DNA from: Morinoia aosen
Taxonomy: Eukaryota; Arthropoda; Malacostraca; Amphipoda; Talitridae
DNA length: 64,000 nucleotides
Assembly (NCBI GenBank): GCA_030386875.1
Contig: CM059568.1
Span: 25,228,120-25,292,119, forward strand
Direction: 5' to 3'
Under the pieces are notes generated by a model. That model was given only the letters and a program-made list of their open reading frames with translations. It did not search any database and was not told the origin of the DNA. Below, piece by piece: positions 1,986 through 36,974 of the stretch (its first letter is position 1; each line of letters opens with the position of its first letter). The translations under genes and the position numbers were made by a program.

Positions 1986-2138
1986 TGTACGCGAGACCCC
2001 AACACCAACTCACGTCGGAGTTTTTATAAGCACTAGACAACTTAGACCTGGCGCTATCCTTCTCGTCACCTCCTTGAACACCTAAGAAACGTCTCCGAGT
2101 TTCATTACCACGATCAAGGCCGCACCTCTAGCGGCACA
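1986..2138 (+). repeat. Short 3' LTR of the gypsy element (about 153 bp)
   Basis: It begins TGTACGCGAG after the polypurine tract AAAAAAGGGAGGGTGAGATA and ends in CA. It contains a TATA-like TTTTTATAAGCAC about 45 bases in. It has the same layout as the LTR-like block at 18795-18955 (purine tract, TGTGCGAGCG start, CTTATAAGC box, CA end), although the two differ in sequence. Confidence 0.55.
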
Positions 2139-2637
2139 CTTTGAAATGTTTCCCAACTCGAGCGCCAAAAAAATCAAAATGATAACCAGTGAATAAATAC
2201 AGGCTACAGAGTATCATTTTGCCTCTAATTTCCTGTGTGGTGTCTAATACTTGTGTAACACTCTGCAATGCAGAGTTGCAAAGTGTTACAATAATTTGAA
2301 ATACATTAAATCAAAAACAATAAATAGAATACATTAAACAACGTGCTCATTAATTGTCTCATTATACTCATTAATAACTTGAATAATGCACTCATTATTT
2401 TCGAAGAGTAGCCCCACTTTTTCAACTGAAATTAGATATAAGCCAAAATAATTCCATGTGATTGGAAAGCATAAGACAAAGTTATTTTTTCAACCTAAAG
2501 AAGATAATAAAAATAGCATTCTAAGATGATCGTCATCAATGAATCATGAGAATGTAATGAAGTGTCGTGACAAATCAAATCCCTCGATTGCGTAATAGTT
2601 GATCCCATTCATGACATGTTCTTGTCGATTTCAATAT

Positions 2638-3292
2638 AAAAACTTCAGGTTTCATTTGTTTGCAGCGGTTTTCGAGCTGCACGACGACGGGTGTGAAATC
2701 ATTGAGCGTATGATGCTGCTTGCGTCCTCTCATGCTCTGCGACATGCACAGCTGGTCTCATGGAGCAGGTTCCTTGTTATTAAGTGCATTCATAAAATGA
2801 ACCAACTTGACTTAAAGCGCAATCCGAAAATAATATCACTGCTGTTGAAGTGAATTTGTCCTGTGGAGAAAGAGACAAATTATTCGCGCAAATGCAGAAA
2901 AACTTAATCCCTCATAGAGAGACGGATGTATCACAGGGTCGCCCAAGCGACCACGGGTTATGTGTCATTGAGAAAATATCACATACATTGAATAATTCAG
3001 AACAATAATCAGATGCAGTCGCAACTACTACAATCAACCTCAGCTTCATTCTCTGTCTCCACAGGACAAATTCATTTCAATAGCAGTGATATTATTTTCG
3101 GATTGCACCTCAAGTCAAGTTGGTTCAATTTCTGAATGCATATCAGCACGAGGAGCCTGTTTCATGAGACCAGCTGTGCATGTAGCAGCGCATATGAGGA
3201 CGCAAGCAGCATCACACGCTCAATGATATCACATTCGTCGTCGGGCAACTTGAAAAATGCTGCAAACTAATGAAACCATAACTTTTTGTATA
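2638..3292. repeat. Foldback (long inverted repeat), copy A
   Basis: The left arm (about 2638-2874) and right arm (about 3051-3292) are reverse complements of each other over roughly 235 bases with scattered mismatches, separated by about 175 bases. Matching landmarks are GCAATCCGAAAATAATATCA in the left arm and TGATATTATTTTCGGATTGC in the right arm, its exact reverse complement. Copies with the same structure occur at 23561-24214 and 42561-43213. A transcript would form a long hairpin. Confidence 0.85.
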
Positions 3293-3319
3293 GAAAATCG
3301 GCAGGAACATCTCAAGAAT

Positions 3320-4329
3320 CACACTCTGTAAAAAGTGTCAACAGTGTCTCCGTGAAGTGAGGACGTTCTTTCTCTTTGCTCGGAAACAAAGTGTCCAATT
3401 GATTAATGAAAATGCATTTCTAACCAAAAATAGTGCCCACTCAGACCATGAAAATCCAAGAGTAAATTTCATCTAACCAAAATCCAAAAATTCGAACAAA
3501 AAGTATGATATTCCCTCAAAACAGCACTCAACCCTTGCTTCTCTTTTTGCAAGTGTCTCCTTTCTCACAAGATGGCGACAAGAAGGGCAAGCAAGAAGAA
3601 CAGTGACGGTACGCTGGAGCTTGACTGTCCAGACGTACAAAACCTGTCAAAACCGAATACGCAAATAGTCTCCATCATAATTGATCACTCTAAGTCTATG
3701 ATGGAGATATTTCAAAGCGAAATTAGTGACTTGAAAACGATGATTGAAACACAAATGAAAAAAGAATTGAATCAATAATCAGTGATTGAAGAGCAAAATA
3801 AAAAGATAGATAGGCTAGTCTCTCGTCTAGAGCGATTCGAAAGGAAAAAAGAACGGGAAGATTTGGAAAACAAAAAATGCACTCTGGTTATCACAGGAGA
3901 ACTACTGCAATAACCAGACTGAGAACTACTGAGAACTACTCCTACATGACTGTTTCCAATAATAAAATTTGCCATGGGAAATATGTAATATGTAATTCGC
4001 CTTCAGTCTGTTGTTAAATCTTTTATCGAATATACTGTTAAATATAGTCCATACAACCAATATTGTAAAATGAAACATCCGATATCGAGTAAATTATCTC
4101 ACTGATCAGTCTAATGTAAAACTAGGTTAAGTGATTTAGGTTAAACATTATTGTACACCTTAGAATAATGTTGATGGTAGGATGCCCCAGAAGTCGCTGA
4201 ACTTATTCGGACCCACAGGTAGCTATATTCAAACTTGTATATTGTACTAGACTTAAGAAACATTCTACCTCTGTATCTTCTGTAGAAAATAAATTGTTTA
4301 AATGGTTTAAATTGTTTAAATTGTTTAAT
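3320..4329 (+). mobile_element. Internally deleted LINE-type element with an exact empty site
   Basis: Copy C of the spacer reads CTCAAGAATGTGACCAAC at 43239-43256. Here the same site is split, with AAT repeated on both sides (3317-3319 and 4330-4332). The 1010-base insert has a 5' leader, an ORF1 start at 3572, and a 3' end made of TTTAAATTG-type repeats (TTGTTTAAATGGTTTAAATTG and so on). A repetitive 3' end, ORF1 with a coiled coil and no ORF2 suggest a LINE derivative that lost its middle and would need another element's enzymes to move. Confidence 0.8.
3572..3912 (+). pseudogene. LINE ORF1 N-terminal fragment (coiled coil)
   Basis: The frame starts at ATG 3572 (MATRRASKKNSDGTLELDC) and is basic, then helical. 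The stretch SMMEIFQSEISDLKTMIETQ and, beyond a TAA at about 3776, EEQNKKIDRLVSRLERFERK form a heptad-rich coiled coil in the same frame. The stop inside the helix looks like a nonsense change. The coiled coil is followed by KKCTLVITGE and a second stop. Coiled-coil trimerisation is common for LINE ORF1 proteins, whose usual role is RNA binding. No RNA-binding domain remains. Confidence 0.6.
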
Positions 4330-5845: not shown

Positions 5846-8400
5846 CTTTCGAGGAGTTTCGTTGCGGCTGCGGTGGTGAGAGGAGGTGGGGTGTCGCGCG
5901 CCGCTCCGGCGAGAAGTTGTCGGTGCTTTAATTCCAAGCACTTCGAAATGTGATGGAAAACTGATCATCTGTGATCATCTACATCATTGAATCAATAAAC
6001 TGGAAAAGTCATCAAAAAAAATCAGCTGTGATAAGTGCTGAATTTCATCGTGCAAATCAGAGTGGTGTTTTCTGTAAACTATGTGTGGACTCTGTGTGTG
6101 GACTGTGTGTGGACTCGAAGTGTGTGCAACAGCCCCCGGAAATGGTCATTTTCGCCTCCCTCCCTGGTGAACCGCAAAAACCCCCTCCCTCCTCCTCCGC
6201 ATCCCCTGTCACTCCCACCGACTTGAACCGGAATGAGCTTACCACGAATACTAACGTGGAAGAAAAAAAGACCTGATGAAATAACAAAGTTGAATTTTGT
6301 GAACACCAACATAAAATACAGTGATAAATTTATGCAATTCTTATCTGTTATGGCGAAATTTATGTTGAGTGTCAGTGAATATGAGTTGAGTGTCTGTGGG
6401 TTTCTTTTAATCGCCTGACAGTTCATTTTTCATCCTATTTTAAAGGCGATGCCACCTATGTCTCCTATTTCTCAAACCATCGATACCAAAATCGCTGCAA
6501 AATAGAAGCTGCACTCTGGCAAGACCGTACCTCGTGAAAATGAACTTTCAGGATCATGCTTTGTTTTCGATTTTTCAATACTAACGACAAACAAATTTTC
6601 CTCTCAATAACTTCTACTCAGTGAACAGAACCTAAAATATCCTCCCCTCTATCCATACATCCGATACAATTTCACGATGTATTCATATGAAACTAGCTCA
6701 GCTACTCGTAAAGCGGCTTTATCTGGAGAAATAACATCCCTCACAACGTCGCTTGAAAAATCAAAGCCAAATAAGCTGAATATATCTGAATCGTTCATAA
6801 AACTAAAACGAAAACCCCCAAAAACGTCGCGCGTAAAGTCACTCGTTCAAAAGCATCAACCGCTCAAAATGACAAAAAAAACCCGACGGTAAAGCAGTGC
6901 GACGTCAACGAAAGCACCGCAGCACATCCGGCACCACCTGAGCGAACCGACAGAGAGTCGACAGAAGGTCGCCCGACAGAGAGCCGAGTTTCGGGTTCAC
7001 CAGCTACGGACAAAAACCTCCAAAGCGTTGCTGGTAACAATGAAGTCTTCACATCGGCATCGCACTCAGTTGAAACAAGCCCTAGCAAGAGCAAGGAAGA
7101 AGCCCCTGAGCCTGGACTCCACTATCCAAGCAATCCTCGAGAGGATACACCAGCGAAAGAAGTCTTACTTGGTATGATGTGTAAACATGTAAATTTGTCT
7201 CTAGCTACCGAAAATGATGCGATGAATGAGCCTAATATTAGCGGTTCTAATATTTCTAATATTTATAATTCTAGTGATCATGATTACCTGAATATTGCAT
7301 CAAGCAGCTTGCACTCGCTTCAAATTTCAATGTCCCATTACATTCACCAGGTAAACAATAACCTGTCTCTCACTGCAGCCCACTTAATGAAAATGTCAAA
7401 AGAGCGGGCACCTCCAAGTCCACTTTCGATATCTTCCACCGCTTCAAATATTAGACTCATAACAGAACAACTTTTCAAATTGAACTTGCATGTAAGCTCT
7501 TTGATCTTACGCCAAAGACCTCGTTTTCTACAGGCCAATTTTCTGACTCACAGTGCAAAAAATCTCTGGATACATTTCTCGTCGGTGATAAAATTCTCAC
7601 GATGGTCCAAAGGAACGACATTGACCCCACTTGTAAAATAAGAACTGTAATTTCCGGTCGCATTGACGATCTCCTTGACGTAATTGGCCAAATGCCTCAA
7701 TTCACTAACTACATCGTTTGCTTCAGAGACTTGAGCCTCTCACAACCTATCATTGCTAAAATCAAAGAACTCATATTGTCTAAGCATGCCTTAGCCCGTA
7801 TTTATGTAGTGAGTGGGTGTAGCGGCAAACAATTGTATCAGGCGTTGAATTTGTGTAAAACAAACGGTATTAAAATGATTCCGCTCCGAACAAACAGTGC
7901 AACTGATCTCATAACTTGCATTGATGTTCGTACTTGGCCCGGTACAAGAGAAGAAACACATCATTTTCTTCAACAGATTGCTCTTAGATCGAGTCTAAAA
8001 CTCACTTTACAACCTAGCTCCAGTATCGTAAACTCCAATGGCCTGAATGACAAAACTGAATGCTCCAACATCAGTGCAGAATAGCAATAAGGACTGAAGA
8101 ATTCTACACGATCACTAGCTGTTTCAAGTGAAGTCTCCAGAAACCTGAATCATTGCTTGCCTATTGGTGATGAACGTTCTCCTCCATTGACCTCCGACTA
8201 CCGCACAGTACCCACAAAAAAACAGGTTTTCGTTATTATCTGACGCGAACTCAGAGAGCGATATACCCTCATCACAAACGAGTATAAAGCATCAACCACC
8301 AACAAGAACAAAAAAAACAAAAAAAAAACCGTTTATTTCCAAGTTGTCACATGAGATACATATGCCAACATATTGGCTTTTAAAAGTTCCTTAATATAAG
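5846..8400 (+). mobile_element. CR1/L2-like LINE, 5' part (leader and ORF1)
   Basis: Sequence foreign to the gene array starts at 5846. It contains a GT-rich leader (5846-6676, with a TGTGTGGACT repeat near 6085-6115), a decayed ORF1 (6677-8084), and an AT-rich end with A runs at about 8310-8330. No ORF2 follows. It may be the 5' half of the same LINE whose ORF2 lies at 16.2-18.35 kb, split by later insertions, or a separate truncated copy. I cannot decide between these. Confidence 0.6.
6677..8084 (+). pseudogene. LINE ORF1 protein, frameshifted, SGNH-hydrolase-like domain
   Basis: Three frames together follow the ORF1 at 13741-15084 on the other strand. The first (6677-6892) starts MYSYETSSATRKAALSGEI, comparable to MHHYETRYAGRKVPFSAQM there. 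The second (about 6890-7500) is low complexity and then contains NNLSLTAAHLMKMSKE and APPSPLSISSTASN. The third (about 7500-8084) contains FLVGDKILT, ISGRIDDLLDVI and NYIVCFRDLSL. The order of a G-D-x block, a middle block and a hydrophobic block fits the SGNH/GDSL-like esterase domain found in ORF1 of some CR1/L2 LINEs. Here the nucleophile position after GD is Lys, so catalysis is unlikely. Frameshifts lie near 6890 and 7500. Confidence 0.7.
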
Positions 8401-8419
8401 ACGTCCTAAAACAAAAGAT

Positions 8420-8851
8420 CCATACGAGGAGTATTAATTGACAAACCATCCGAGGTGTAAAAATAGATAAGCCATACGAGGCATAATAATCGACGAACTA
8501 TATGAGGTGTGCTAATAGATAAACTATCAGAGGTGTACAAATAGATAGACCATACGAGGCATATTAATAGACATAATAAACGAGGCGTACTATAATAGAC
8601 AAACCACACATGGTGTGCTAATAGTCTAACAAAGTTCCATACGAGGAATACTAATTGACAAACCATACGAGGTGTACAAATAGATAAGCCGTACGAGGCA
8701 TAATAATAGACAAACTATACGAGATGTAATATTAGACAATACTATCATAGGTGTACAGATAGATAGACCATACGAGGCATATTAATAGAAAAAATATACG
8801 AGGCGTACTAATAGACAAACCATACGGGTCGTGCTAATTGTTTAACTCTGT
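8420..8851. repeat. Two-level tandem satellite
   Basis: A unit of about 26 to 29 bases of the type CATACGAGGTGTACTAATAG occurs roughly 16 times. The units form a higher-order repeat of about 215 bases: the series from 8420 to 8637 (starting CCATACGAGGAGTATTAATT) recurs in the same order at 8638-8851 (starting CCATACGAGGAATACTAATT). No protein function is suggested. Confidence 0.85.
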
Positions 8852-11165
8852 CAAGGGTAGTTGAATGAGAAATGAGAAATATTATCTCTTGGATATTTTA
8901 TATTCCAAGAGATTCCGGTACAGCACTTCTTGCCTTTTTCCTACTTCGATAATTTCAACTAAGAACTTGGCAGTTTCGAAGAATTCTTTAGTATTTTTCG
9001 AATTATTTATAAGATCATCGAAGTAGGAAAAATACAAAAAAACGCTACACCGTACTAGATTGAAACAACACCGTAAATGACAATCAAGTATTGAGAAAAA
9101 GATAGTCTCGAAATAATTTGTAAAGAACATCGCGCAACACAGCACGCACATCTAGGAATGCGTAAACAAACTTACACTCAAAATTGAAATGCATGGCTTG
9201 TTAGGCATACAAATATAGAGATAATTTTTGCACGAGTGCTTTATTTCCTTTGTCTGTTTATACTTTTTAATTTCTTCTGTTCACAGAAATGCCCTTCGGG
9301 GTCGTGATAGATCGATTTATAAATCATAAAGCAAGCGCAATCAATTTGTTTATTTCTGAAATTTGGTGCAGTGTTAACTGATCGCAGAGCTTTAGGTAAA
9401 ATGTGATGTGTCTTGAGGTTTTGCTTTTTATGCAAAAAGTAGAAATAGAAACCGATATATGTACATGTGCGCATATATGTGTGCGAAACGTGTGCATGTT
9501 TACACTGATACATAAACATTTATGTTTGCGTGCGCACACGTACATACTCACGCACACACCAACACACATATTCATATATATACGTATTGAAAACGAATAT
9601 AAGAAAAATGCTAATAGACATGAAAAATAATCTTACTCTTTCAATGTTTAAAATGACAGCCCAAGCTCTGATGAATCGAAAGAAATAACCTGAGGAAAGA
9701 TAAGGAATAGAAAAGGACTGCGAAAAACGTATAAATGGAATGGTTTTTTAATTTCCTAAAGGAAATTTTAAGAAAATTCAAGTTACCGCTGAGGAACAAC
9801 AACAACAAAAAAACATATATCTTCAATATATCATATCATATATCATATCTTCTCGATATTCTCTGCAACATCATGCGGACATGGGTACATGGGATAAAAT
9901 GGAGATACAGTGTAGGCCAGTTACCACTCATGATTGACAAATATCTACAAAATTTTGGCAGAAATGCGCAAACAAACATATACTCAACATCAAAATTTGC
10001 TTGTACAACATACGGACAGAAAAATAATTTTACCACGATTCATACGCTCAAATTACGATTAATTTCATTAATTGTATTTGTCATTAATCCGATTCACAGA
10101 GACGTCCTCTGGTGTAAGTGGGAGATCTATTTTTGAATCATTTCGCTAGTGCAATAAAATTTATTAACCGGATGGTTTTTGTGTAAACAAATGAATTAGA
10201 AACATGTATATCTATTTATGTAGATATATATATACCTATATACGTACACACACATATTAATATATGTACTTATTGAGAATGAAATATAAGAAAAAAATAC
10301 AAATATAAAATAAGAGGATAGAAACAACCTACCATCTATTACACCGATAATGACAGTTGAGCTCATTGTAATCCTAAGAAATTATTCGAAAAAAAAAATA
10401 ACTAAAAGGAAAAGAAGACTTCGGAAAACGTAAAATGAACTGGTTTTTAGTTACTTCATAGAAATTTTTAAGAAAACTCAGGTTACAGTCAAGAAACAAC
10501 ACAACTCTTCAGTATTATACAGACATGTGTACATGGGATAAAATGGAGTAATATTGTGGCCGGATATCACATTTGAGTGGAGAATATTTACAAAATTTGG
10601 CACATATAGGTAGATTAAGCAATGGTCCAAAGTGATAATTTTGATAACAGAAATTAACAGTTTTTTTCGATTTTAAAGTTTAGTGCTGGTGTGCACTGAA
10701 CGCACGGAAAAATATAAAAGACTAAATGAAAATGCTTAAATTAACCCCTCCCCCCAGCTCAGCCGAAATCGATTGAAAACATCTTCGAGAATGATTTTGA
10801 AATAACGAGACAACGTTAGCCAAAATTTAATTCATTATAAACTTTGCACAATCCTCACATTTATAAACCTGTATATTGGTGTACACACAAAATGTATTTC
10901 AGAGTATGTTTTCCATACGGATGTTAAATATTAACACAGAGAAGAAAAAATAACAAAATAAAGATGAGGAAATACTCCTAATTATGGAAAAAACGTTCAT
11001 TCTGCTGTATTGAACTCACGGTTGGGGTGCTCATTATTGTCGACAGAAATAGTTAAGATGAATGCACGAATGGCTTAGCAAACGTAAAATGAAATAGTTT
11101 CTAATTTTTTAACAGAAATTTCAGGAAAATTAAATTTTCTGGTAAATGGGAAATTCACACCGAAA
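8852..11165. repeat. Gene-free AT-rich region with diverged 0.65-kb tandem repeats
   Basis: No gene is recognised. Three diverged versions of one segment follow each other. Landmarks are AACGTATAAATGGAATGG at 9729, AACGTAAAATGAACTGG at 10427 and AACGTAAAATGAAATAG at 11082. Between the first two, other shared marks are ACATGGGATAAAATGGAG (about 9887 and 10533) and CTACAAAATTTTGGCA / TTACAAAATTTGGCA (9945 and 10588). A stretch rich in alternating TG/CA and TA steps lies at 9450-9580 and 10200-10270. Confidence 0.55.
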
Positions 11166-13745
11166 TGCTGCAGGTCTATAGAGATGCAAAATGACGTGAC
11201 ACATTTACTCTAAATTCTTTTACAGTTTTAGAGTTTTTGATATGCTGGGGAAGCTTGTTCCACAAAAAAACTCCAGAAACTGAGAGAGCTTTTTGTCCCA
11301 CGTTAGATGAACGGTAACTGACTAAAACATCATCTTCCGATTTGGTTTTTTGTTTGGGATATTAGATGGAAAAAATTTTACCACCTCTGCATTACTTTGG
11401 GGGAGGTACAGAGAGGAGAACACTCGTCGAGCTTTTTGGATCATGAATCTGTTCGGTATTGGGATCCAGTCGAGTTTTCTTAAAAGAGGGGTGACATGAT
11501 CGTATTTATTGAAATTTCCTTTGCACACCACTTTGGCGGCGAAGTTTAGACATTTTTGCAACTCTTTCTGACGATATTGAGGTAAATTTCCCCACACAAG
11601 ACTGCAGTAGTCCAGGCGCGATAAAACTAAAGACTGAATCACTAACAATCTAGATTTTTCGTCAAGTGTGTTCTTAATGCGATGAAAGAACATTAAGGTT
11701 CCGTTTATTTTGTTGCACATTGTTTCGACGTGTGAATTGAAAGTCATATTTTTGTCAAACCAAACACCCAGATTTTTTACCGTCTCTACTGGTTCAATTG
11801 TATCGTCTCTAAATGTTAGCTTGAATGGTGGTAAATTTTTAGTCGCATTCTGTGACCCAAAAATAATGCATTGCGTTTTACTTGCGTTAAGTTTGAGGCC
11901 ATTATGGTCATACTACAATTTAAGGTTTCTCAGAAGGTTTTCAGCGTTGGCTTGTGTTTCTTTTAAATCTGCTGTTGAGCTTGTCATGGCAACTTGTACG
12001 TCGTCAGCATACATTGAGATATTTGTGTTTGCCGGCATGGTGGGGAAATCATTGATGAAGATTGGAAATAAGAGCGGGCCGATGATTGAACCTTGAGGAA
12101 CGCCAAAATTGTTTGGTATGAATGATGACATTTTGTTATTCAAGCACACTGCATGAGAGCGGTTTAGTAGGTAGCTTTCAAACCATTGAGTGTCAATTCT
12201 GAGGTTTGAAATTTTTTGTAGAAGTTTCTTATGCTCAACACTGTCGAAAGCTTTGGAGAGATCAAGCAATAGTAGGGGAGTTAATTTTTTTTGGTCAATA
12301 TCATTGTAAATTTTTTCTGTTATGTTTAACAGGGCGTCCTGAGTACTGGTATTCCTTCTGTAAGCATATAGATTGCGATGCGGTAGATGTGACTCGTCTA
12401 TGTAAGACGAGAGCTGGTTTTTTATTACTTTTTCTAATATTTTGGACATAACAGGCAGGAGACTGATTGGTCTGTAGTTTGACGCTATGTCGATATCACC
12501 AGATTTATGTAATGGCTTAATAATGGATAATTTCCATTGGTCGGGAAACTTGTTTGTGGCTGTAGATGTATTTATTATCAAACGAATGAGGGGTGCTGTG
12601 ACAGGGAAGCTGTCTTTTATTTGTTGGAGGCTTATGCCATCATGTCCAGTCGCTTTGGTATTCTTTAGTGAGTATAAGATTTTTCGTAACTCTATGACGC
12701 TAACCGGCTTTGGTCTCCATTTGTTTCTACTATTTGGGGATGATACATCGCTCGGATTTGCTCCTGTAGATGTGTCTGAAACTGTCCTGGATACTTCATT
12801 GAAAACATCTTCGCCAACTTTTGAGAAGAAAGTATTAAAGTCATTAGCCATTTTTGAGGGGTTGTCGAAAGTGCTTTTGCACTCCGAGTTTTTATACTGA
12901 GCAACTTCTCTAATGATTTCCCAAGTTCTTTTTGGGTTTTGTTTTGCCGCCAAGAGTTCTTTGTGGAAGTAGTCCCGTTTTGCTTCCTTAACTTTTCTTC
13001 GTAGGATCTTCTCATGATCTTTATATAATTTTAGACGCGTACTGTCTGATTTATTCAGTTTGTACTCACGCTGCAAATTTCTTTTAGCTCTGCTCAACTG
13101 TTTTATCTCATCTGTTATCCATTTAGAAATTCTTGGCTTAACTTTCTTCGTAGTGAAAGGTGCGCATTCGTTAAGAGCCGATACGAAATTTTCGTTGAAA
13201 AGCGAAACTTGTAAATTGACATCATCGGTGTTTTCCATGCCTTGAAATTCACTCCATCTGTCTAATAGCTTTTCTTGAAATATTTCAGGGGAGTAGTGAT
13301 TTTTCATGCGATGTGAAATGTAACTAGATTTCTGTTTCTCTTTTGCAATATTTATTTGGCATTCTACCGAATGGTGATCAGAAAAGGACGGTAAGATTTC
13401 TGTGCTGAGTACTGCTTGGGGATTGTTTGTAATTGCTAGGTCAAGAAGAGTTTTGGAAGCGTTGGTAATTCGCGTTGGTTCTTGGACCATTTGAGAAAGA
13501 TTAAGTCTGTGCAGCATCTTGCTTAGCTTATTGTTTTTATTTGTCAGATCTACGTTAAAATCTCCGAAAACATAGAAAGATTTTTGGCTGCAGAGATTAA
13601 TTTAAACGTATTTTCAATGAAATCTAATGTTGGACGTAGAGATGCTGACGGATGTCTGTAAAGACTGCCGATAATGAAAGACTTGTGTTTGTTTACTTGA
13701 ACATTGAGCCAAACCATTTCTATGTTTTCGCATTTTTCTTTTATC
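11166..13745 (-). pseudogene. LINE ORF2: partial APE endonuclease plus reverse transcriptase
   Basis: The frame opens in the endonuclease (IEMVWLNVQV, SLYRHPSASL). A one-base shift near 13590 leads into the long frame 13517-11913 with FSDHHSVEC, the endonuclease SDHH-type block. The RT follows: LKNTKATGHDGISL, NYRPISLLP, LLLLDLSKAFDS (first catalytic Asp), GVPQGSIIGPLLF and YADD. A TAG stop at about 11913 interrupts it, and the same frame continues with LGVWFDKNMTFNSHV and LSRLDYCSLVWG to 11322. A further shift near 11330 precedes the final WNKLPQHIKNSKTVKEF. The enzyme would nick target DNA and copy its own RNA onto it. It is dead here through at least two shifts and one stop. The domain set fits the CR1/L2 superfamily of LINEs. 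Confidence 0.85.
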
Positions 13746-15084
13746 GGAAATAAGGATGTAGAGTAGGCCGTTGAGGCCGTTGAATGTTATTGAGTGCGTA
13801 ACCGTTTTCATAATCTGGGTAAGTTTGAAATTGAATCGAGTTTAAACCCAGGTTTTTGCAGAAATTCATCGCTTTGTTGAATTCTTTCGCACTGCAAGCA
13901 TTGGCGATATAAATAGTAGAAAGTGCGTACTTCCTTACAATTTGTTGTTTGATTCGAGCAAGGTCTGAGGGAGAGTGGCAGAGACCATCAAAACTTAGTA
14001 TATAATTTTTAAATCTAGGCATGCAATTTATAGCATGGAGAAGGTCGTCGAAGCGCCCAGATGGAACAGTTTTGATCCAGCAAGAGCGATCGATGTCCTT
14101 CCTTCTGATCGTGCTTAGGATATTGTCACCTAGCAGCAGAGTATCGTAAGGTTCTCGACAATTGGAGTCGACTTCACAAGAGATACTAGCAGGTACCGCA
14201 GTTGCAAGGTCATGAGAACTTATATGTGAATTTAAAGCAAAAAGTTGCTCGGTTAAGTTTTGAATGTTTGATACTGTAGAGAAAATCGACGACGGGCTAG
14301 GAGGCTCACGTTGTCTTAGGGATTTATTGAAAAACGCTGCTGTTAGAGACAAATTGTGAATAATTTCATGAATTTTTTGAGAGCTTGTGATTTGAAGCGG
14401 GTGCAAGTAGCCATTTAAAGAAGTAACAGTGTTTTTTCTATTGCTCTGTACTGGAAATTTCATTTTGTTCTCACAGCTTGCGCTCTGGGGTAATTTACTG
14501 CCAGTATCGGTTTGTGCGCGAATATTATCTAACATATAATCTGGAGAATGAGGAGAGTCTACCACGCTTGAAATGTCCTTATTAATAACAACTATTCTGT
14601 CTTGTACCACTGATGAGGATGGCGTTTGTGTCCCCGTCGCTGGCGGACAGTTTGGAGCGTTGTTGTTGACGCAGAGCTGGGGAGCTGGCACGCTGTTATG
14701 CTTGTTCAGATGAGGAGCAGCAGTTGGTTGTGGTGCTGCGGCTGAGACTTCACTGCTTCGAACCTTCAAATGATTGCTGGAGGTTTGGCAGATATGTTTT
14801 CCCTCGTCCTGCGATATTGGTTGCATAGTCTTCACTGACGTTGCTTCGGAAGGTGACACACATTCTCTGACGGAGTTACTGGCAGCGGTTAGCAAGTCTC
14901 CTGCGTTTTGAGCATTAGAATCTTGTGAGCGAGAGGATGTAGGTTTCCTACTTGCAGGCACTTTGCTTGGTAAGGTCGTATTTTTGCCCCTGAAAGAACC
15001 ATTTTTCCGGGATGTTGTGTAGGGCAACATCTGTGCAGAGAACGGCACTTTCCGGCCTGCGTAGCGAGTCTCGTAGTGATGCAT
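13741..15084 (-). CDS. LINE ORF1 protein with degenerate SGNH-hydrolase-like domain
   Basis: One open frame of 447 codons starts at ATG 15084. Residues 1-260 are basic, Ser/Pro-rich and probably disordered. About 235-285 (IIHNLSLTAAF, REPPSPSSIFSTVSN, LTEQLFALNSHISS) match the second LINE ORF1 at 7.3-7.5 kb. About 305-430 form an alpha/beta domain: LLLGDNILSTI, then VPSGRFDDLLHAI, then NYILSFDGL and YALSTIYIANACSA. This follows SGNH/GDSL esterase blocks I to III, but the Ser of G-D-S is Asn and the GxND block is FDG, so esterase activity is doubtful. The C-terminus (RPQRPTLHPYFR) comes from the deletion joint with ORF2. Confidence 0.75.
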   Translation of the reverse strand: MHHYETRYAGRKVPFSAQMLPYTTSRKNGSFRGKNTTLPSKVPASRKPTSSRSQDSNAQNAGDLLTAASNSVRECVSPSEATSVKTMQPISQDEGKHICQTSSNHLKVRSSEVSAAAPQPTAAPHLNKHNSVPAPQLCVNNNAPNCPPATGTQTPSSSVVQDRIVVINKDISSVVDSPHSPDYMLDNIRAQTDTGSKLPQSASCENKMKFPVQSNRKNTVTSLNGYLHPLQITSSQKIHEIIHNLSLTAAFFNKSLRQREPPSPSSIFSTVSNIQNLTEQLFALNSHISSHDLATAVPASISCEVDSNCREPYDTLLLGDNILSTIRRKDIDRSCWIKTVPSGRFDDLLHAINCMPRFKNYILSFDGLCHSPSDLARIKQQIVRKYALSTIYIANACSAKEFNKAMNFCKNLGLNSIQFQTYPDYENGYALNNIQRPQRPTLHPYFR

Positions 15085-15340
15085 TGTGCGTTATATTTGC
15101 ATAGCTATGACTGAATTATGAGAACGATGTAGTTTTTGTATATGTATCGCTGATACTGATTTGCTAAATTTTACCTCGCTCAGCAAGTATTTTATGAAAA
15201 GTGAGGTAAATCCAAGCCGTTCATCGAGGTATTGAAGCTCACAGCTGAGAGAAGAGGGGTTGCCCTTTAATGCTGGAGGACAGAGGCGAGGAACTGGGAG
15301 GCTTGGGGTTGGCCGCGAACAATGACATGCAATTTTGCAT

Positions 15341-16206
15341 TTTGCATTTTGTACGACTAGGTCACAGTCTCTGACACGAGTCGTGATTTTTTTTTCTTTT
15401 TTTGGCCGAGAGTTTCTTCCTATTTGAGGGACGTTTTAATTATTCAACAGAATGAGATCTGGTACAAAATGTGATATGATGATATTGAGGGACAGCACAA
15501 TTTTTAAATTTCAGTTTCATTGATTATAAAGAAAGCGTATCTTAGTATTCAGCCTCATCTTCAGTCTTTTCCTTCGTTCGGATGGGCTTCCTTTCGCTGC
15601 GGTAATTTTGCAGGAAATTTTGCAGGATCAAGAAACACATCGTCAGTAGGATGACTAACGCTTTTAGTGAGAACATATTTGAATTACAAATTCAAGGTTA
15701 GGTGCACTTTTTATAGTATTTTCCCTGGTGATTGTAAATGTTTTTCAACTTCTCGTTCACCCGTTGATCTTACTGGTAGCTCACTTCAAACTTTCTGTGT
15801 ATTTGAACTATTCGGTGTCAGTAGTGAAACGGAGGTACGAAACACAATAATTCTTTCGTGCACATTTGCCGTCTCGGCCACGTAGGAAGTGAACAAAAAC
15901 TTAACTGAGAGGTTTGACATTACCAAAAATTGATCACAAACAAACGTAATTTCTTTGGTTGCTTGAAGCGGAAAAGTCCAGGTTTTACTATGCTCTGAAC
16001 GGTCAGAGGACGGGAGGCAGGTGTACGGGAAAGGGGGGGGGGGACCACGTACTCGGAAGCATTAAAATCAATACAAAGAGTAAAATTGCAGCAGAATCTC
16101 AGTCGAAATCCGATAAAACATTTACAGCCAAACCGCATACATAACCACCACCAAGAGTGGAAATGACAAGGGCTCCCCTCATTTCTCAGTCGCTCACTCA
16201 ACTTAA
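15341..16206. other. No recognised gene; junction region between two LINEs
   Basis: There are T runs near 15390-15410, a GCATTTT triplication near 15335-15350 and a G run at 16028-16037. An open frame from 15959 to 16144 (ending TKSKIAAESQSKSDKTF) is basic and could be remnant LINE coding sequence just upstream of ORF2, but this is too weak to call. Confidence 0.4.
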
Positions 16207-16305
16207 ACTGGCCACAGCCTGCCAATTCAAAGCCAGGAAAACAAGAAATCCCAACAACTTTCGTCTGATAATGCTGAAAGTCAGCCTAAATATGATTCAA
16301 GCCCC

Positions 16306-16800
16306 ATGTACCCACTCGTCAGCACCACCATGGATGAATTAAAACGATCATTGAAAGTGAAGCTGCTTCCTACCATAGCCGATGGGCACTGCCTCTTTCA
16401 TGCAGTAACTCACCAGCTTAAAACACAATCGTCTTCAAAATGGAATTACAATTCCTTAAAAGCAGCAATCAAAAATGAGAGCACTACAAATGAAAACAAA
16501 TATGTTAGTTTCCTTGCCAAGAAAAGCGGTGTTCTACCTAGGCTCATAAGTAAATACATTGACGAAAAACATTTTGATCATGATGCTGGGGACCTAATAC
16601 CACATATCATATCAAAGATCACTGGTAGGAGAATTTTCATCTTCGATGAGCAAGGCGGTGGTATTTGGAAAACAGTAGTCGACCCCTCACCAGAGGTATC
16701 AACTAATAACCATCCGTTGATGCTTCATCGGAAAAATGATCACCACAGTACCCTTGTTGCACAAGACAAAAACATAACTGATATCACATCATCTTTATGA
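16306..16800 (+). CDS. OTU-like cysteine protease domain of the LINE
   Basis: From ATG 16306 this 164-residue part contains KLLPTIADGHCLFHAVTHQL (residues about 19-38). That is the OTU hallmark D-G-x-C-L-F, with Asp25 and Cys28 as the expected catalytic pair. It is followed by helical segments (WNYNSLKAAIKNE, YVSFLAKKSGV), then LIPHIISKITGRRIFIFDE, and finally HRKNDHHSTLVAQ near residues 141-153, where the catalytic His is expected. OTU proteins usually cleave ubiquitin chains. Within a LINE it could protect the ORF proteins from ubiquitin-dependent decay or process the polyprotein; both are inference. The final TGA is in frame with the endonuclease, so this was probably the N-terminus of ORF2. 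Confidence 0.8.
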   Translation: MYPLVSTTMDELKRSLKVKLLPTIADGHCLFHAVTHQLKTQSSSKWNYNSLKAAIKNESTTNENKYVSFLAKKSGVLPRLISKYIDEKHFDHDAGDLIPHIISKITGRRIFIFDEQGGGIWKTVVDPSPEVSTNNHPLMLHRKNDHHSTLVAQDKNITDITSSL

Positions 16801-18353
16801 CAAAATACTGTTGTCCAGTTGAATGGCAGTCTCTCAAATACACCTGATGCTAGACCTGACACTCTGGGCAACAATGATAAGATCAACGAATCCACGAAAT
16901 GGTCCCTACCAAAAAATCACTTTGATACCACAAATAATCGCCATAAAATGAAAAACATCAAAATTAAACATATCAATGCTCGGAGCCTCATTAGCAAGCT
17001 GGATGGCGTTAGAGTAATGTTGGTCACAGAAGACATTGACATTTTATGTGTTTCCGAGACATGGCTTGATTCGCGAACTCAAAGCTCCTTTTTCAATATT
17101 CCCGATTACGTGCTGTACCGTCTTAAAAGTAGCAAAGGTAGTGGATCTTGTATTTTCGTGAAGGAAATGTATCTGTCGTCTTTACTTTTAACAAATGAAG
17201 TGTGCGAGGGCATAGAAATGGTTTGGTTGAAAGTGCAAATAAATAAACGTAAGTCCATCATTACCGGCAGCCTTTACCGGCACCCATCAGCTTCTCTACC
17301 AGCAACAATAGAGTTCGTTGAGAAAATTTTTAAAGAAATTTTAGCTACAAAAAAGTCATTCTTCGCATTCCATGATTTTAATATTGACCTAACGGATGAA
17401 AAAAATCAGCTAAGCAGACTGTTGTACAAACTAAACTTTTCACAAATGATTAAAGAACCGACTCGCGTTACAAGAGAATCAAAAACTCTCCTCGATCTGG
17501 CAATTACAAACAAACCTACGGCAATACTTAATACAGTTATATCACCCTCTGTCGCCGATGACCACTCTGTAGAATGTAAAATTAATATTGCAAAGGAAAG
17601 ACAAAACTTTCGTTTCCTAACTTACCGCCTAAAAAGTCAATATTCACCGGAACTACTTAATGAAAAACTCCTAAACAGGTTCACCGAATTTCAGAGTATG
17701 ATACAACCGTACGATGTGGACATTGAAGTTTCTATCTTCAACGAGAACTTCACAGCAGCTCTCAATGAATGCGCTCCTTATATCACCAAAAAAACTAAAC
17801 CAAAACGCACTCTCTGGATTACCAGCGAAATTAAAGACCTAAGCAGAAAAAAGAAAGTTTCCTTGCGAGAGTATAAAGAAAACAGGTCAAACATTACTTT
17901 ATACAAGAGATATAAAGAACTTGGAAAGATTCTTCGGAAGAAAATCACGCAAGCAAAACAAACTCACTTCCACCAAGAACTATTCATGGCAAAAAATTAT
18001 CCAAAACGTACATGGGAGATCATTAGTGAGGTGGCTAAATATAAAAACTTAGAGCGCAAAAGTGATTTTGAAAATCCTTTTGAAAAAGCCACTGAGTTCA
18101 ACACATTCGTTTCAAAAGTAGGTGCCCAAGCCTTCGAGGAAGTGATTAGAACCAGTCCGAGGAAACTGACAGTTGAAAGTTCATGCCCTACTGCACTTTT
18201 AAAGGCTGGTGCCCTGCGGAAGCCACGTTCTGTCGATTTACCAGAGTTACAAACTATTTTATACGCATTGAAAAACACAAAAGCAGTCGGACATGATGGA
18301 ATCAGCCTCCAATACATAAAATACAGTTTTCAAGTCACAGCACCTGTTTTAAT
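16801..18353 (+). pseudogene. LINE APE endonuclease and truncated reverse transcriptase
   Basis: It continues the OTU frame without shift. Endonuclease blocks by residue (counted from codon 16819): HINARSLISKLDGV about 50-63, DILCVSETWLDS about 74-85 (metal-binding Glu), GSLYRHPSASL about 152, FAFHDFNIDL about 182-191 (Gly of GDFN replaced by His, Asp and Asn kept) and VADDHSVECK about 244-254 (catalytic Asp-His). Then come a Lys-rich connector and KAVGHDGIS at the RT start. After APVLM the sequence becomes unrelated (SGVSFTSLCC). The endonuclease appears largely intact; the RT is lost. Confidence 0.85.
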
Positions 18354-18794
18354 GAGATTATCTGGCGTTTCATTTACTTCCCTTTGCTGTGTCTTGTTTA
18401 CGTAAGTAAGTACATTGTAAGTTCAATAGTTGTGCTGTTGTTTTTTTTTGTAGCAGCTAGTGTTATATTTCTTTTAAATTTTGAGGATAAGGGCATTATG
18501 TTATATCGTTTCAGCGCCTTTATACTCCCAGCTTGTGTTGCGGCTTGTGTTGATACTTCTCGAGCTGAGTACTGTTACTAAATTTGACCAAATTTATTCG
18601 TATTGATCTTTCAATGGTGAAGAAAAACGATCCAATTATGTACCAGTGTATTTCCCAGTTAATAGAATTACCTTTGAGTTTTACACGCATGTGAGGCGGA
18701 TTCTGTGTTTGAAATTAAAAATTTTCTTTTTATCCGCCGGAATATATTTTTTTATTTATAATTGAATACCTATTCGGTTAAAGGGGGGAAGAAA
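18354..18794. other. Unassigned stretch before a short LTR
   Basis: This is T-rich sequence with no gene. It ends in a purine tract (AAAGGGGGGAAGAAA, about 18780-18794) directly before the LTR-like block at 18795, as expected of the last internal bases of an LTR retrotransposon. The breakpoint at 18353, where the LINE is cut, may be the end of that element or a deletion joint. Confidence 0.4.
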
Positions 18795-18955: not shown

Positions 18956-19113
18956 ATCGTGAACCCTCTAAAAAACCGACAAAACTATATAAAATATAAT
19001 CTATCATTGTCATTGATTGCCGCAATAAGAAATGGTGGCATGGAACACCCGGTTCCTAAGTTCCCTGCAGGAAGTCAACACTAAAATAATAAACGTTAGC
19101 AAATTGAACTCAC

Positions 19114-19781
19114 TGCGGCCTGAGGTGAGCGGGGGCGCAGCGGTCGCAGAAGAGATGGCGACAGCTCGAAAGCACGCAGAACTCGTCGTCGTCCTGAATT
19201 GCGGCCTGGCAAACTGCGCAGGTCTTCAGGGTCCCGCAGCCCAGCACCTCCTCCACCGTAGAGCAGGGCGTGATGGGGAGCAGGAGGGGGCTAGTAGCAA
19301 AAGCCCCCTGCAGAATCAAAGGGAAGACCAAGCTGGCGACCAGATTCTGCATGTGGACGGCACTGTAGAAGGCAGTCCTGCCCTGAGGATCGTCAGCCAC
19401 GACGGAGCGCATCTCCTCATACACAGGGTCGAAGAGCAACACGTTGTACAGGAAACAAAAGCGGGCGAGGTCCCTCAGGTGAGCGATGGCGTTGCCGTCA
19501 TAGAGTTGCGTTGAGGTGATGCGCTCCAAGACGAGATTGATGCCTTCCACCACGTCCAAAACATACCACTTCATCGATGGCAGGAGAGGATAAGGAGCAG
19601 TCGGGGTGTAGCAAACATAAATACCATCAGCGCCCTCCAAAACAATGGTCAGCACGGACACCAGGGCTCCCACCTGACGCAGGGACGGACGCGAGAGGGG
19701 GGCGCCCAAGACTCTCCGCAGCTCGCGGAACCACATCGGAGGCACGAGGTGCTGGTGGCTTCGTTGGGCTGTGGCTACGTC
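19114..19781 (-). CDS. RING gene 1, exon 2
   Basis: Exon 2 is bounded by an AG acceptor (TTGTCCACAG before 19781) and a GTGAGT donor after 19114. It encodes about 222 residues, mostly helical with two hydrophobic stretches (LRQVGALVSVLTIVLEGADG and LVASLVFPLILQGAFATS), then six of the eight zinc ligands of the RING. Compared with gene 3 the readable parts are highly alike, which supports recent duplication. Confidence 0.8.
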
Positions 19782-21185
19782 CTGTGGACAAATCGAATTG
19801 TTAACTTAAATCGTTCACAACTTCTAGTTAGTTAAATCCATGATTTGACACAAAATTTTTGAAAGAAAGCGAGAAAAGTATATATTGCTACAGCACAATA
19901 AAAAAAATGAAGTATCAGCATTGAACGAAATTAATTTCGGAATGCAAATATTTCGAAAACATTACCAATGCAAATTAAACATTCAGAGTAACATCTCTAT
20001 ATGACAAGTATTCTCAGAGAAGGCTTTAAGAACAGCTCTTTCTGACTTTTATTCATGCTGAACAGAAAAGTTGCTGGGAAATAAAAAAACTCGAGATAAA
20101 TTTCATATGGGAATTCAAAAAAAAAATATATACAAAAACTATTGTTTCCCAGACTATGACAAATAATCTCATAGGGCATAAGTCACTCTTCATTTCTAAA
20201 GCTGCAGTGGTCAAAAAAATATTAAAGAGTTTTTGTTGAAAGAGGTACGAATTTGTACAAAATTAAAAACACTAACTCACAAAATTAAATTTCAGGTATT
20301 TGAAACATTGTGCAGTTTCCGGTGAGAAATAGATGTCAAAAAATAAGAAAATAAGCCGGAAGCATTAAATACTGACTTCTACATCCGTTAATTTTTGACG
20401 TATGACATCCAAAAAACTACTCCAATGCTGTCAATCACGAAAGTTGATATCGCAGCGCTTAATTTAATAATTCATCCAAACATCATTTGTATTAAATGAC
20501 GCGCAAAATATTGAAAAGATCAATATAGTTAATTCACAATGATCTACTCTTCCCCATTGATGCACACAGAACCAATACAGTCCTGACACCAACACACACA
20601 ACTGATTGAAATGGAATGATCGGGAGCTATGAAAGTTCGAATTGAATTTATTGAATGAATTTACCAGTCAATTTGTCAATGGTTGCGATGTGTCATCAGA
20701 AATAATATCATACTTCCCATAAACAAGAATTAATCACAGAAATTTTTTAGGAATCGCTCAATTGACCGTTTAATTAGTGTTATTAGAAATGTGTACTCGT
20801 TTACTGTTGAATTTTGTATTGTGACGAGGGGACTGTCAAGTGGAAGATTAATCAAAAATTTTCTTAGTTCTATCATGATTATCGGCCACATCAGTAACAA
20901 AAATGCAATCAATTTTCAAACAATAACTACCACATGGTAGCCACTTTTGCTATTAAATTTCCTTGCACAAAAATGTAAAAAAAATTATTTCTATATAAAT
21001 TTCACTTCTTTGGCAGGTTCCCTTTCCGATACTAGTATTACTACCTTTACAGTTATTCTATTTCAAAGCATAATATCGCTGCGTGTCATGAACACTGCTG
21101 TTAATTCAAATGATTGGAATGCTGTATGAGTAATTTTATCTTCTAAAATGAACAACAATCGTCAACAACTGATGGGTGCACTTAC
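19782..21185 (-). other. Intron 1 of RING gene 1
   Basis: A 1.4-kb intron with a GTAAGT donor and a TTGTCCACAG acceptor. It aligns along most of its length with intron 1 of gene 2 (29560-31109). Landmarks shared by both are GGAAGCATTAAATACTGACT / GGAAGCTTTAAATACTGACT and TCAATATAGTTAATTCACAA. No gene or recent insertion is seen. Confidence 0.75.
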
Positions 21186-28991: not shown

Positions 28992-29559
28992 ATGGCGACA
29001 GCTTGAAAGCACGCAGAACTCGTCGTCGTCCTGAATTGAGTCCTGACAAACTCTGCAGGTCTTCAGGGACCCGCAGCCCCGCATCTCCTCCACCGTAGAG
29101 CAGGGCGTGATGGGAGCTGGAGGGGGCTGGTAGCAAAAGCCCCCTGCAGAATCAAAGGGAAGACCAAGCTGGCGACCAGATTCTGCGCATCTCCTCATAC
29201 ACAGGGTCGAAGAGCAGCACGTTGTACAGGAAACAAAAGCGGGCGAGGTCCCTCAGGTGAGCGATGGCGTTGCCGTCATAGAGTTGCGGCGTGGTAATGC
29301 GCTCCAAGACGAGATTAATGCCTCCCACCACGTCCAAAACGTACCACTTCATCGATGGCACGAGAGGATAAGGAGCATTTGGGGTGTAGCCATCACAAAT
29401 ACCATCAGCGCCCTCCAAAACAACGGTCAGCACGGACACCAGGGCTCCCACCTGACGCAGGGACGGACGCGAGAGGGCGGCGCCCAAGACTCTCCGCAGC
29501 TCGCGGAAGCACATCGGCGGCACGAGGTGCTGGTGGCTTCGTTGGGCAGTGGCTACGTC
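28992..29559 (-). pseudogene. RING gene 2, exon 2, main piece (58-bp deletion)
   Basis: After the TTGTCCACAG acceptor at 29559 the frame follows gene 1 (DVATAQRSHQHLVPP, CFRELRRVLGAALSRPS, VLLFDPVYEEMR). At about 29187 a segment of 58 bases present in gene 1 is missing between two GC dinucleotides, which shifts the frame and removes the part equivalent to SVVADDPQGRTAFYSAVHM. The RING beginning CRVC...CVLSSCRH is still legible in the old frame up to the LTR insertion at 28991. Confidence 0.85.
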
Positions 29560-31109
29560 CTGTGGACAAATCAAATTGTTAGCTCAAATCGTTCACAACT
29601 TTTAGTTAGTTAAATCCTCCAAATGAAGAAAATAAAATTAAAGAAATGAATGGTAGGTACAAGCTGATTTCATTACAATTTCATTGTAAAAAACAACGTG
29701 TGGAAATTGGATCAGAGACTACTGACAAATTGGTGGCATACATAGTGGAAATAATATGCTCTTTGAGCATAGATGCAACAATTTATTAATTGAAAGAGAC
29801 ATGATTTGATACGAAATTTTAGAAATAAAACGAGAAAATTTTTTATTGCTACAGCATAATAAAAAGAATGAAGTATCAGCATTGAACGAAATTAATTTCT
29901 GAATGATAATATTTCGAAAACATTAACAATGCATATTCAACATTCAGAGTAACATCTCTGACAAGTATGACAAGTATTCTCAGAGAATGCTTTAAGAACA
30001 GCTCTTTCTGACTTTTATTCATGCTGAACAGAAAATTCGCTGGGAAATAAAAAAACTCGAGTTAAATTTCATATGGGAATTCAAAAAAAATATATCCTAA
30101 AACTATTGTTTCCCAGACTATGACAAATAATCTCATAGGGCATAAGTTACTCTTCATTTCAATAACAGCAGTGGTCAAAATAATATTAAAGATTTTTTGT
30201 TGAAAAGAGGTAGAAATTTCTATAAAATTAAAAACGCTAACGCACAAAATTATATTTCAGGTATTTGAAACGTTGTGCAGTTTCCGGTGAGAAATAGATG
30301 TCAGAAAATAAGAAAATAAGCCGGAAGCTTTAAATACTGACTTCTACAACCGTTAATTTTTTGACGTATGACATCCAAAAAACTACTCCAATGCTGTCAA
30401 TCACAAAAGTTAAATCGTAGCACTTAATTTACTAATTCTTCCAAACATCATTTGCATTAAATGACGCGCAAAATATTGAAAAGATCAATATAGTTAATTC
30501 ACAAAGATCTACTCTTCCCCATTGTTGCACACAGAACCAATACAGTCCTGACACCAACACACACAACTGAATGAAATGGAATAATCGGGAGCTATGAAAG
30601 TTCGAATTGAATTTAATGAATGAATTAAGCAGTCAATTTGTCAATGATTTTGATGTGTCATCAGAAATAATATTATATTTCCCATAAACAAGAATTAATC
30701 ACAAAATTTTTTAGGAATCGCTCAATTGAGCATTTAATTAGTGTTATTAGAAATGTGGACTCGTTTACTGTTGAATTGGGTATTGTGACGAGGGGACCGT
30801 CAAGTGGAAGATTTATCAAAAATTTTCTAAGATCTATCTTGAATATCGGCCACATCAGTAACACAAATGCACAAAATGCATCCTTGCACAAAAATGTGAA
30901 AAAATTCATTCAATATATATTTCACTTCTTTGGCTGGTTCCCTTACCGATACTAGTATTACTACCTCTACAGTTATTTTATTTCAAAGCATAATATCGCT
31001 GCGTATCATGAACACTGCTGTTAATTTAAATTACATGTTAAAATGCTGTAGGAGTAATTTTATCTTCTAAAATGAACAACAATCGTCAACAACTGATGGG
31101 TGCACCCAC
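29560..31109 (-). other. Intron 1 of RING gene 2
   Basis: The intron of 1.55 kb is homologous to intron 1 of gene 1, with an additional stretch of about 150 bases near 29620-29790 not seen there. The donor is GTGGGT (GTAAGT in gene 1), still a usable type. No gene is seen. Confidence 0.75.
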
Positions 31110-31817: not shown

Positions 31818-32452
31818 TCACATTGAATGTGTGTCAGATGAGACCATTCCTAACTTCGTTCTCAGCCTAGAGAACTTTTCTATGGGCAGGTTCTTGGTAA
31901 ATATGTCGGCGAGCATTTCGTCGGTAGGGCAATAGACTACGTCTATGTCTTTGTTACTTACAAGATCCCGTACATAGTGAAACTTAATATCGATATGCTT
32001 GCTCCTCCCATGATATTTGGGATTGTTGGCAAGACAGATGGCTGACTGGTTGTCTTCGTTTATAACCATTGGTTCCACAGTACCAAATTTTAGTTCACTG
32101 AGTAAGTGCTTCAACCAGACAGCCTCTTGAGCCGCACCGGCAAGAGCAACGTATTCGGCTTCTGCAGTTGAGAGGGCTACACAAGTTTGTTTATTAGATC
32201 TCCACGTAATTACCGAATTACTGAGGGTGAAACAGTAACCAGAGGTAGACTTTCGGTCATTTTTATCACCATCCCAGTCAGCATCTGAATAACCAATGCA
32301 AGTATCAGAACATTTGCTATACAAGAGACCTAGTTTGGAGGTGCCTCTCAGGTACCTGAAAATTCTCTTAACACGCATCCAAAGCTATTCAAGAGGTTTG
32401 GAGCTGTTTTTAGCAACATTATTCACTGCGAATGCAATGTCAGGTCGAGTTC
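31818..32452 (-). pseudogene. Copia RNase H and end of pol
   Basis: The open part 32378-31818 contains YSDADWDGDKNDRKSTSGYC (first catalytic Asp), STAEAEYVALAGAAQEAVWL (catalytic Glu), INEDNQSAICLANNP (second Asp) and RSKHIDIKFHYVRD, the ordinary copia RNase H. Upstream an in-frame TAG interrupts the link from RT. The domain would remove the RNA strand of the RNA-DNA hybrid during replication. The core residues are present. Confidence 0.85.
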
Positions 32453-32825
32453 GATTATATTAGATTAGATTATAAGTTAGTTTAAGCCTCCCTAACCGCT
32501 ACAAAAATAGAGCGTATCGAAGAGAGGAAGGAGGAAGGCACCATTTAGTATGGAGATAAGAAAATGAGGAATCTATGCTGAAGGGGCATGGAAACAGTAA
32601 GATGAGAAAGAAGTTCATGAAATAAGATAAAAGTTGAAGAAGAAAGTGAGAAGTGCTGAAAAACAGGACAGCAGCGAACCGAAAAAAGGTGGTCCTTAAC
32701 ATAACAAAAAATAACATTTATTTCAACAAAAAAAAGGCCTACCTAACTCTCAGCTCGGGCCCTCACATTTTTCCCCTGGGAGCGCTAATTCCCATAGATA
32801 CAATAGTTGTATCCCCCTGAGGGGG
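32453..32825 (-). mobile_element. Short retroposon (SINE or 5'-truncated LINE) inside copia pol
   Basis: A 373-base insert between two copies of TGTCAGGTCGAGTTC (32438-32452 and 32826-32840), a 15-bp target duplication. Read on the minus strand it ends in TAATCTAATCTAATATAATC, a short repetitive 3' tail, and begins with CCCCCTCAGGGGGATACAAC. A duplication of this length with a simple tail is the mark of LINE-driven insertion. It shares GAGGAAGGCACCAT-type sequence with 34230-34480. Confidence 0.8.
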
Positions 32826-34046: not shown

Positions 34047-34232
34047 AATTTAAGATCGTAGGCGAATGATCAATTAATTTATATAGCACCGCACAACAAT
34101 AAAGTGAATTCATACCTCGAGGGTACACGAGAAATAGCTGAGTGAGACATAAGAGGCCATAGAATAGTAGCACATAAAAAGGGAATTCGCCACCCTGCTA
34201 ACGACGTGGCACAACGACGATTCACAATGTTA

Positions 34233-34480
34233 CGATTATTATTATTATTATATAAGAAAGTTTTAGCTTCCCTCAACCACGACAAAGAAGTCCCAAGAGA
34301 GGAAAGAGGAAGGCACCATCTAGCATGGAGTTGAGGGAACGCGGAAACTAAGCATAAGGTGCACAAAACAGTAAGCTAAGGAAGAGATTCATGAAACAAG
34401 AAGAAGTTTCTGTTGCATTTACAGGGAAGAGAATAAGTCTTCACTCACGGAACACATCGCTAGAAAACACATTTCTAAAA
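34233..34480 (-). mobile_element. Second retroposon related to the one at 32453
   Basis: It shares AGAGGAAAGAGGAAGGCACC and CATGGAGTTGAGG-like words with 32520-32570. On the minus strand it ends in a run of TAA units (plus strand GATTATTATTATTATTATAT at 34234). The left-hand limits and a target duplication were not found. Confidence 0.5.
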
Positions 34481-34877
34481 ACACATTTGCAATACACGCA
34501 CAGGACCAAAAAGGACAAACTACTCGCACACGCATTGATTACAACATTTTTGGCGTCCTGACCAGCCTTTTAGAATTTAAAACTCTCGAGATAAGGAACA
34601 CATTTCATCCTCTACATGGAGTAAATGACAAGGCAAGTTTAGTTTTGTAAATCACACATGGGAGTTTTATGAATTTTAGGCTATAAGGACAGCTTCCCCC
34701 ATACGAAACCTTTTTTTTATTATTGAACCTGGAGCAATGAAATTTGGTATACTGATAGGAACTGCAATTTAGAATCGATTATACTTGTGGAAAAAGTACG
34801 ATTTTCCTGGAACGAAAATGGGAAATCGAAGAAAACGAACATTTAGGGGGGGTTTTCAAAATGCTTCTTGTCCGACA

Positions 34878-36956: not shown

Positions 36957-36974
36957 CACGTCTTGCAAGACGTG
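36957..36974. repeat. Perfect 18-bp palindrome
   Basis: CACGTCTTGCAAGACGTG reads the same on both strands. It sits exactly where copia integrase sequence ends and the 2.9-kb foreign block starts. It may be a breakpoint product or chance. Confidence 0.6.

Follow-up and report, generated by a model that had tools for sequence, protein, structure and literature searches.

As judged from its sequence relatives, an OTU cysteine protease domain is surely part of ORF1 in a large group of LINEs of the amphipod Morinoia aosen. The best explanation for its in-frame position ahead of ORF2 is that readthrough of the ORF1 stop codon yields a minor, Gag-Pol-like fusion of ORF1-OTU with the endonuclease and the reverse transcriptase (RT), and we consider such a fusion probable in the intact relatives of the copy described here. 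One RNA of these relatives would encode an ORF1 of about 800 amino acids, the last ~160 residues of which form the putative OTU domain, followed by a leaky UGA and then by approximately 990 codons of the same frame with endonuclease and RT. The majority of ribosomes would halt at the UGA and produce ORF1-OTU, and a few would pass it and produce ORF1-OTU-endonuclease-RT, comparable to the Gag-Pol protein of MuLV. Within this arrangement, the OTU domain would probably strip ubiquitin from the retrotransposition particle or cleave the fusion protein.

The analyzed stretch of DNA, in the following called the window, comprises 64,000 nucleotides and contains a copy of the second of three LINE families considered here (Table 1). 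On the plus strand, the region 16207-18405 is a single frame that is interrupted solely by the TGA at 16798-16800, and the OTU domain, this one TGA and the start of the LINE endonuclease/RT region share this frame within 16207-18353, as the initial annotation had described it. The beginning of the frame at 16207 is meaningless, because a stop codon of the window copy lies directly before it and the frame of L038, a full-length family 2 element, extends far upstream. The two family 2 pieces of the window abut in the element (L038 positions 18-1658 and 1657-3968 in the alignment to full-length L038). They are separated by an insertion of 7.7 kb with a family 1 LINE at 11180-13766 and 13773-15110 on the minus strand plus flanks, and this inserted LINE has itself lost 1.45 kb, including OTU, TGA and endonuclease start. 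Close to the 3' side of this LINE, a tandem repeat block at 8414-8846 is shared with the family 1 copies L027 and L030. Since the similarity to L038 stops at 18344, the window copy is without an RT core. Being split by another LINE, decayed and 3'-truncated, it is a dead member of an abundant LINE. Its linker contains an in-frame ATG at 16948, which is absent from all 18 other family 2 copies read.

Table 1. Parts of the family 2 LINE copy in the window and of the insertion that splits it
Feature	Position	Strand	Remark
5' part of ORF1, family 2 element	6670..8303	+	L038 element positions 18-1658, 90.7% identity
Insertion splitting the family 2 element	8304..16043	.	largely a minus-strand family 1 LINE
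3' part of ORF1, terminated by the OTU domain	16044..16797	+	92.4% identity to L038 over 16044-18344
Putative OTU cysteine protease domain (approximate)	16330..16797	+	PF02338 25.7 bits; three-family alignment; DGHC and late His present
TGA, ORF1 stop and candidate leaky stop	16798..16800	+	TGA in 42/42 own-genome copies read
Linker of 56 codons, open in the ORF1/ORF2 frame	16801..16968	+	
ORF2 start: APE-type endonuclease and first portion of the RT region, 3'-truncated thereafter	16969..18344	+	

Elsewhere in the window, a gene-like ORF is present twice on the minus strand (19110-19805 and 29152-29583) within several long duplicated blocks, and the copy at 19110-19805 ends in a Cys-rich stretch that by eye resembles a RING finger. 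Fragments resembling LTR elements of the Copia, BEL/Pao-like and Gypsy types, recognized by eye from their ORFs, are located on the minus strand at 31818-39183, 46540-48569 and 53042-56374, respectively.

The search for further copies in the genome of M. aosen (1.99 Gb, 29 contigs) revealed the same plan in all three families: an ORF1 with OTU domain, TGA, a linker of 53-56 codons and endonuclease-RT, all in the same frame. For family 1, a search with the Pfam OTU profile PF02338 gave 1842 first-look candidates; the 150 scored rows all exceeded the cut-off, 49 of them lie in open frames of at least 800 amino acids, and 20 of the 150, picked for long frames, were fetched. Family 2 is represented by a search with the window stretch (18703 candidates, 62 scored matches), from which 18 matches were read at the junction and L038 alone in full. 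A search with the ORF2 query P0002 resulted in 49 scored matches, four of which were fetched with their upstream sequence (family 3). The OTU domain stands at the end of ORF1 and is followed by TGA in 18/18 copies of family 2, in 4/4 of family 3 and in 20/20 of family 1, the last figure being partly a selection artefact, because these copies were picked for long ORF1 frames. The four copies of family 3 are the fairest test of the association of OTU and ORF2, since they were found by ORF2 alone. Altogether, TGA is present in all 42 copies read, the endonuclease is in frame in 41, an in-frame ATG in the linker occurs in none, and extra in-frame linker stops occur in four. The initial annotation had taken the TGA for a mere break in the frame; on the evidence of these copies it is surely the regular stop codon of ORF1 and not a sign of decay. 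The shared frame of the three families does not represent three independent events, since the families share ancestry.

In each of the 20 copies of family 1, a frame of 805-884 amino acids runs up to the TGA and has the OTU domain at its end. Nineteen of them continue in frame into the endonuclease motif, the exception being L018 with a frameshift in the linker. L027, L030 and L036 possess an unbroken second frame of 987 amino acids from the TGA on, L032 (981 amino acids) and L034 have an additional linker stop, and the second frames of the remaining copies are broken. The family was active recently, since L030 and the remaining 19 copies share 96.6-99.5% identity in the aligned part. Among the scored matches to the window stretch, the internal TGA is present in 62/62 and no other stop in 35/62, which confirms at the sequence level that the OTU-TGA-endonuclease frame recurs beyond chance. 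Several of these matches consist of one frame of 1797-1800 amino acids, with that TGA as the sole stop inside the match. L038 has an ORF1 of 804 amino acids, the TGA and then 992 amino acids in the same frame, and L041 has an additional linker stop. In all four copies of family 3, the OTU end is followed by TGA CAA and by an ATG-free linker in frame; in L057 the Cys part of the OTU domain is deleted, and in L056 ORF1 is frameshifted. The ORF1 proteins of families 2 and 3 are 38-40% identical to that of family 1, and between families the identity amounts to 48-58% in the region before the stop and to 67-79% in the endonuclease. In ORF2 of L030 and L038, PF03372 and PF00078 exceed their cut-offs (endonuclease and RT of an APE-type LINE). 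A further query, P0009, retrieved mostly frames of 986-987 amino acids resembling family 1, and L060 is a truncated family 1 copy. The copy search proposed in the initial annotation thus supports the OTU domain as part of the family, and the arrangement recurs in intact copies. Capture of a host OTU fragment by one single copy is rejected, as the domain recurs in three families.

A single polypeptide with OTU, endonuclease and RT requires readthrough of the TGA, which is favored but not proven by the sequence. The linkers of the reference copies (53, 56 and 56 codons) contain no in-frame stop, against 17, 13 and 12 stops in the other two frames together, and no in-frame ATG, against 4, 3 and 1 out of frame. 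Under a first-order Markov model, the probability of a linker with neither in-frame stop nor ATG is 0.0005, 0.006 and 0.007 for the respective families, values that are not independent because of the shared ancestry. The first in-frame ATG of the reference copies is located 10-16 codons past the start of the endonuclease motif. The base after the UGA is C in 41/42 copies; the codon after the TGA is CTA in 20/20 copies of family 1, and in families 2 and 3 together it is CAA in 21/22 and AAA in 1/22. If a type II readthrough signal is defined as UGA followed by CUA or CGG, in many cases with a stem-loop ~6-12 nt downstream, the signal UGA CUA is present in family 1 and absent from families 2 and 3. 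According to one report, UGA CUA alone confers 1.5-2.9% readthrough, the human OPRL1 stop with more of its sequence reaches 17%, and UGA CAA, as in families 2 and 3, is of the kind termed ostensibly less leaky (PMC11166343). RNA structure 3' of the stop is not unusual in 18 folds (z between -1.9 and 0.44), and family 2 alone shows a stem of 10 bp, located 9 nt past the stop. Selection on the linker is borderline between families 2 and 3 (dN 0.44, dS 0.91, p 0.051) and not significant between families 1 and 2 or 1 and 3 (p 0.20 and 0.23).

This weak selection on the linker would also fit a different scenario, in which ORF1-OTU always ends at the UGA, while translation of ORF2 begins on its own, through either reinitiation or internal entry at a non-AUG codon. 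In that case ancestry or chance would account for the common frame, and the OTU domain would never be joined to the polymerase. SART1 and mammalian L1 provide precedents for reinitiation and unconventional initiation (PMC5972666), and families 2 and 3 offer a candidate start in good context, namely a CTG that forms linker codon 22 and is flanked by A at -3 and G at +4. However, this CTG is missing from family 1, each of the three reference copies has out-of-frame ATGs ahead of the endonuclease and past the stop, and a separate start leaves unexplained why the linker is open in one frame only. We regard this scenario as rather unlikely, and readthrough as the likely way in which ORF2 would be produced.

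Other ways of decoding or removing the UGA are disfavored. General use of UGA as a sense codon is at odds with TGG counts of 18 and 15 against one TGA each. The histone H3 and H4 genes seen at the two loci read (L061 and L062) end in TAA and are hence silent on sense use of UGA; large histone clusters are present on C4, C22, C23, C26 and C27 of the genome (150 scored of 712 candidates, with near-equal H3-like matches). Insertion of selenocysteine was rejected, as no SECIS match was found in L030, L038 and L058 at E up to 1. An intron excising the TGA is improbable, since a spliced template would have lost this codon.

The first part of the window frame matches PF02338 with 25.7 bits (cut-off 23.3, E 1.7e-5, model positions 2-68 of 128), which supports the OTU domain as part of the family by the profile search that the initial annotation had recommended. 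L030 reaches 31.9 bits, and the full ORF1 proteins of L038 and L058 score 19.7 and 18.2 bits, both under the cut-off; all six aligned members match at E up to 0.1 (best 2.6e-9). A dN/dS analysis of the OTU part, likewise recommended, revealed purifying selection between families 2 and 3 (dN 0.24, dS 0.91, dN/dS about 0.26, p 2.5e-9; 149 codons before the stop). Compared with solved structures, a profile of the members finds VCPIP1 (E 0.0023), OTUD7B (0.025) and EschOTU (0.13), followed by unrelated chains. The single window sequence found no relative among solved structures, and its single-sequence structure model has a mean pLDDT of 40.7, too low for use. The model is covered incompletely by the Pfam matches (as far as position 100 of 128 among the members listed; 1/150 genome rows reaches 128), and the window copy reads HH at a site where the remaining aligned members read HY. 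Both observations would fit a fold relic or a binding module without protease activity. However, DGHC and the late His are invariant across the six aligned members, purifying selection acts on the region, and the profile has deubiquitinases as its closest relatives of solved structure, so that we consider loss of protease activity rather improbable. DGHC is in frame in 41/42 own-genome copies. In the middle of ORF1, a region starts with a GDN/GDK motif, which we take to be reminiscent of SGNH esterase ORF1 proteins; this region has no Pfam match.

The initial annotation had placed the OTU domain at the N-terminus of ORF2, and while it is indeed element-borne and in the same frame as the endonuclease, a view of the TGA at 16798 as a mutation of the window copy has next to no probability, for although the window shows a single frame, the codon is shared by every copy read and ORF1 of intact relatives extends ~640 codons upstream of the OTU domain, which is the C-terminus of ORF1.

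Among database proteins, no match to the OTU part was found at E 0.01 (164 candidates), none to the ORF1 proteins of the three families at 0.001 (7931 candidates), and scans of viral contigs gave no relative. The part after the TGA, taken alone, has only sub-threshold endonuclease matches in Pfam; its best three database relatives, LINE ORF2-like proteins with RT, are 35-39% identical over 95-99%. Among the matches from named animals are three RT proteins (51-53% over 29-30%) from the amphipod Trinorchestia longiramus and one protein of the thrips Frankliniella fusca (24%). With the endonuclease part, at least 49 matches at 1e-10 were obtained (7993 candidates scored, those sharing most words); none of the first 12 of the 49 that were aligned possesses an OTU domain, and several of these begin inside the endonuclease.

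In a scan of prokaryote genome contigs, ORF2 relatives were detected at nine loci; the records concerned were deposited as MAGs and presumably represent eukaryote contamination. None of the nine contains the OTU Cys motif in a regular-expression search, and the upstream part was read in six. L001 and L002 encode a zinc-knuckle ORF1, a TAG and a same-frame ORF2 after 20 and 22 codons without ATG; they are related to each other (endonuclease 50% identical, TAG at the same place). L006, a contig of 4612 bases, has a zinc-knuckle ORF1, TAG CAACTA and a same-frame ORF2 after 10 codons without ATG, and its TAG CAACTA fits the type I readthrough signal UAG CAR YYA. In L003 and L005 the endonuclease is preceded by a 2A-like DxExNPGP, and in L004 there are upstream ATGs. 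Because the related families L001, L002 and L006 in other deposits are without OTU, the domain is, on sequence comparison, a feature of the present LINE group and not of the whole superfamily. The in-frame stop may be more general than the OTU domain, although a claim would need more than three such contigs, two of which are related. Chances seem about even for the wider idea that one class of LINEs obtains its polymerase through readthrough of the ORF1 stop, as a polyprotein of a Gag-like and a Pol-like part (contexts UGA CUA, UGA CAA, UAG CAA CUA and UAG G), with an OTU protease exactly at the junction in one animal lineage, a position from which it could process the polyprotein or free the particle of ubiquitin.

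By domain content, the elements resemble APE-type LINEs of the Jockey superfamily (CR1, L2), which share an APE endonuclease and RT in ORF2 and an ORF1 of varied domains; their ORF1 types I-V carry RRM, CCHC, PHD and esterase domains, and OTU is not mentioned in the text of that source (PMC4120745). RLE-type LINEs with an Ulp1-like protease also place a cysteine protease of a ubiquitin-like system ahead of the RT, but the protease is not of the OTU type and the arrangement is one protein. Helentrons have OTU-like protease ORFs, for which a role in cleavage of their own proteins has been proposed; in contrast, they are rolling-circle DNA elements with the OTU in an ORF of its own (PMC4067079). 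An in-frame stop between Gag-like and Pol-like parts is known from MuLV (PMC5009743) and from the Ty1/copia element VdLTRE5 (PMC3441728), which are, however, a retrovirus and an LTR element, and the MuLV stop is UAG plus a pseudoknot. Non-standard translation of LINE RNA has been described as reinitiation in SART1 and L1 and as 2A StopGo in LINEs of trypanosomes and sea urchin, in both cases without stop readthrough (PMC5972666). Neither an OTU domain in a LINE nor stop readthrough between LINE ORF1 and ORF2 was found in the PMC literature searched; Repbase reports and most subscription journals lie outside this scope, so that earlier mentions of either are possible.

By which route the RNA of a two-gene LINE yields a small amount of ORF2 protein has long been asked, and the answers so far are few (reinitiation, unconventional initiation, 2A). 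A leaky stop that is conserved and in frame would, if true, be a clear and testable alternative and would tie LINEs to the Gag-Pol logic of retroviruses. That a LINE with recent activity retains its OTU domain under selection suggests an action of the ubiquitin system on LINE particles in this organism, to which the element responds; alternatively, it may mean that LINEs can process a polyprotein.
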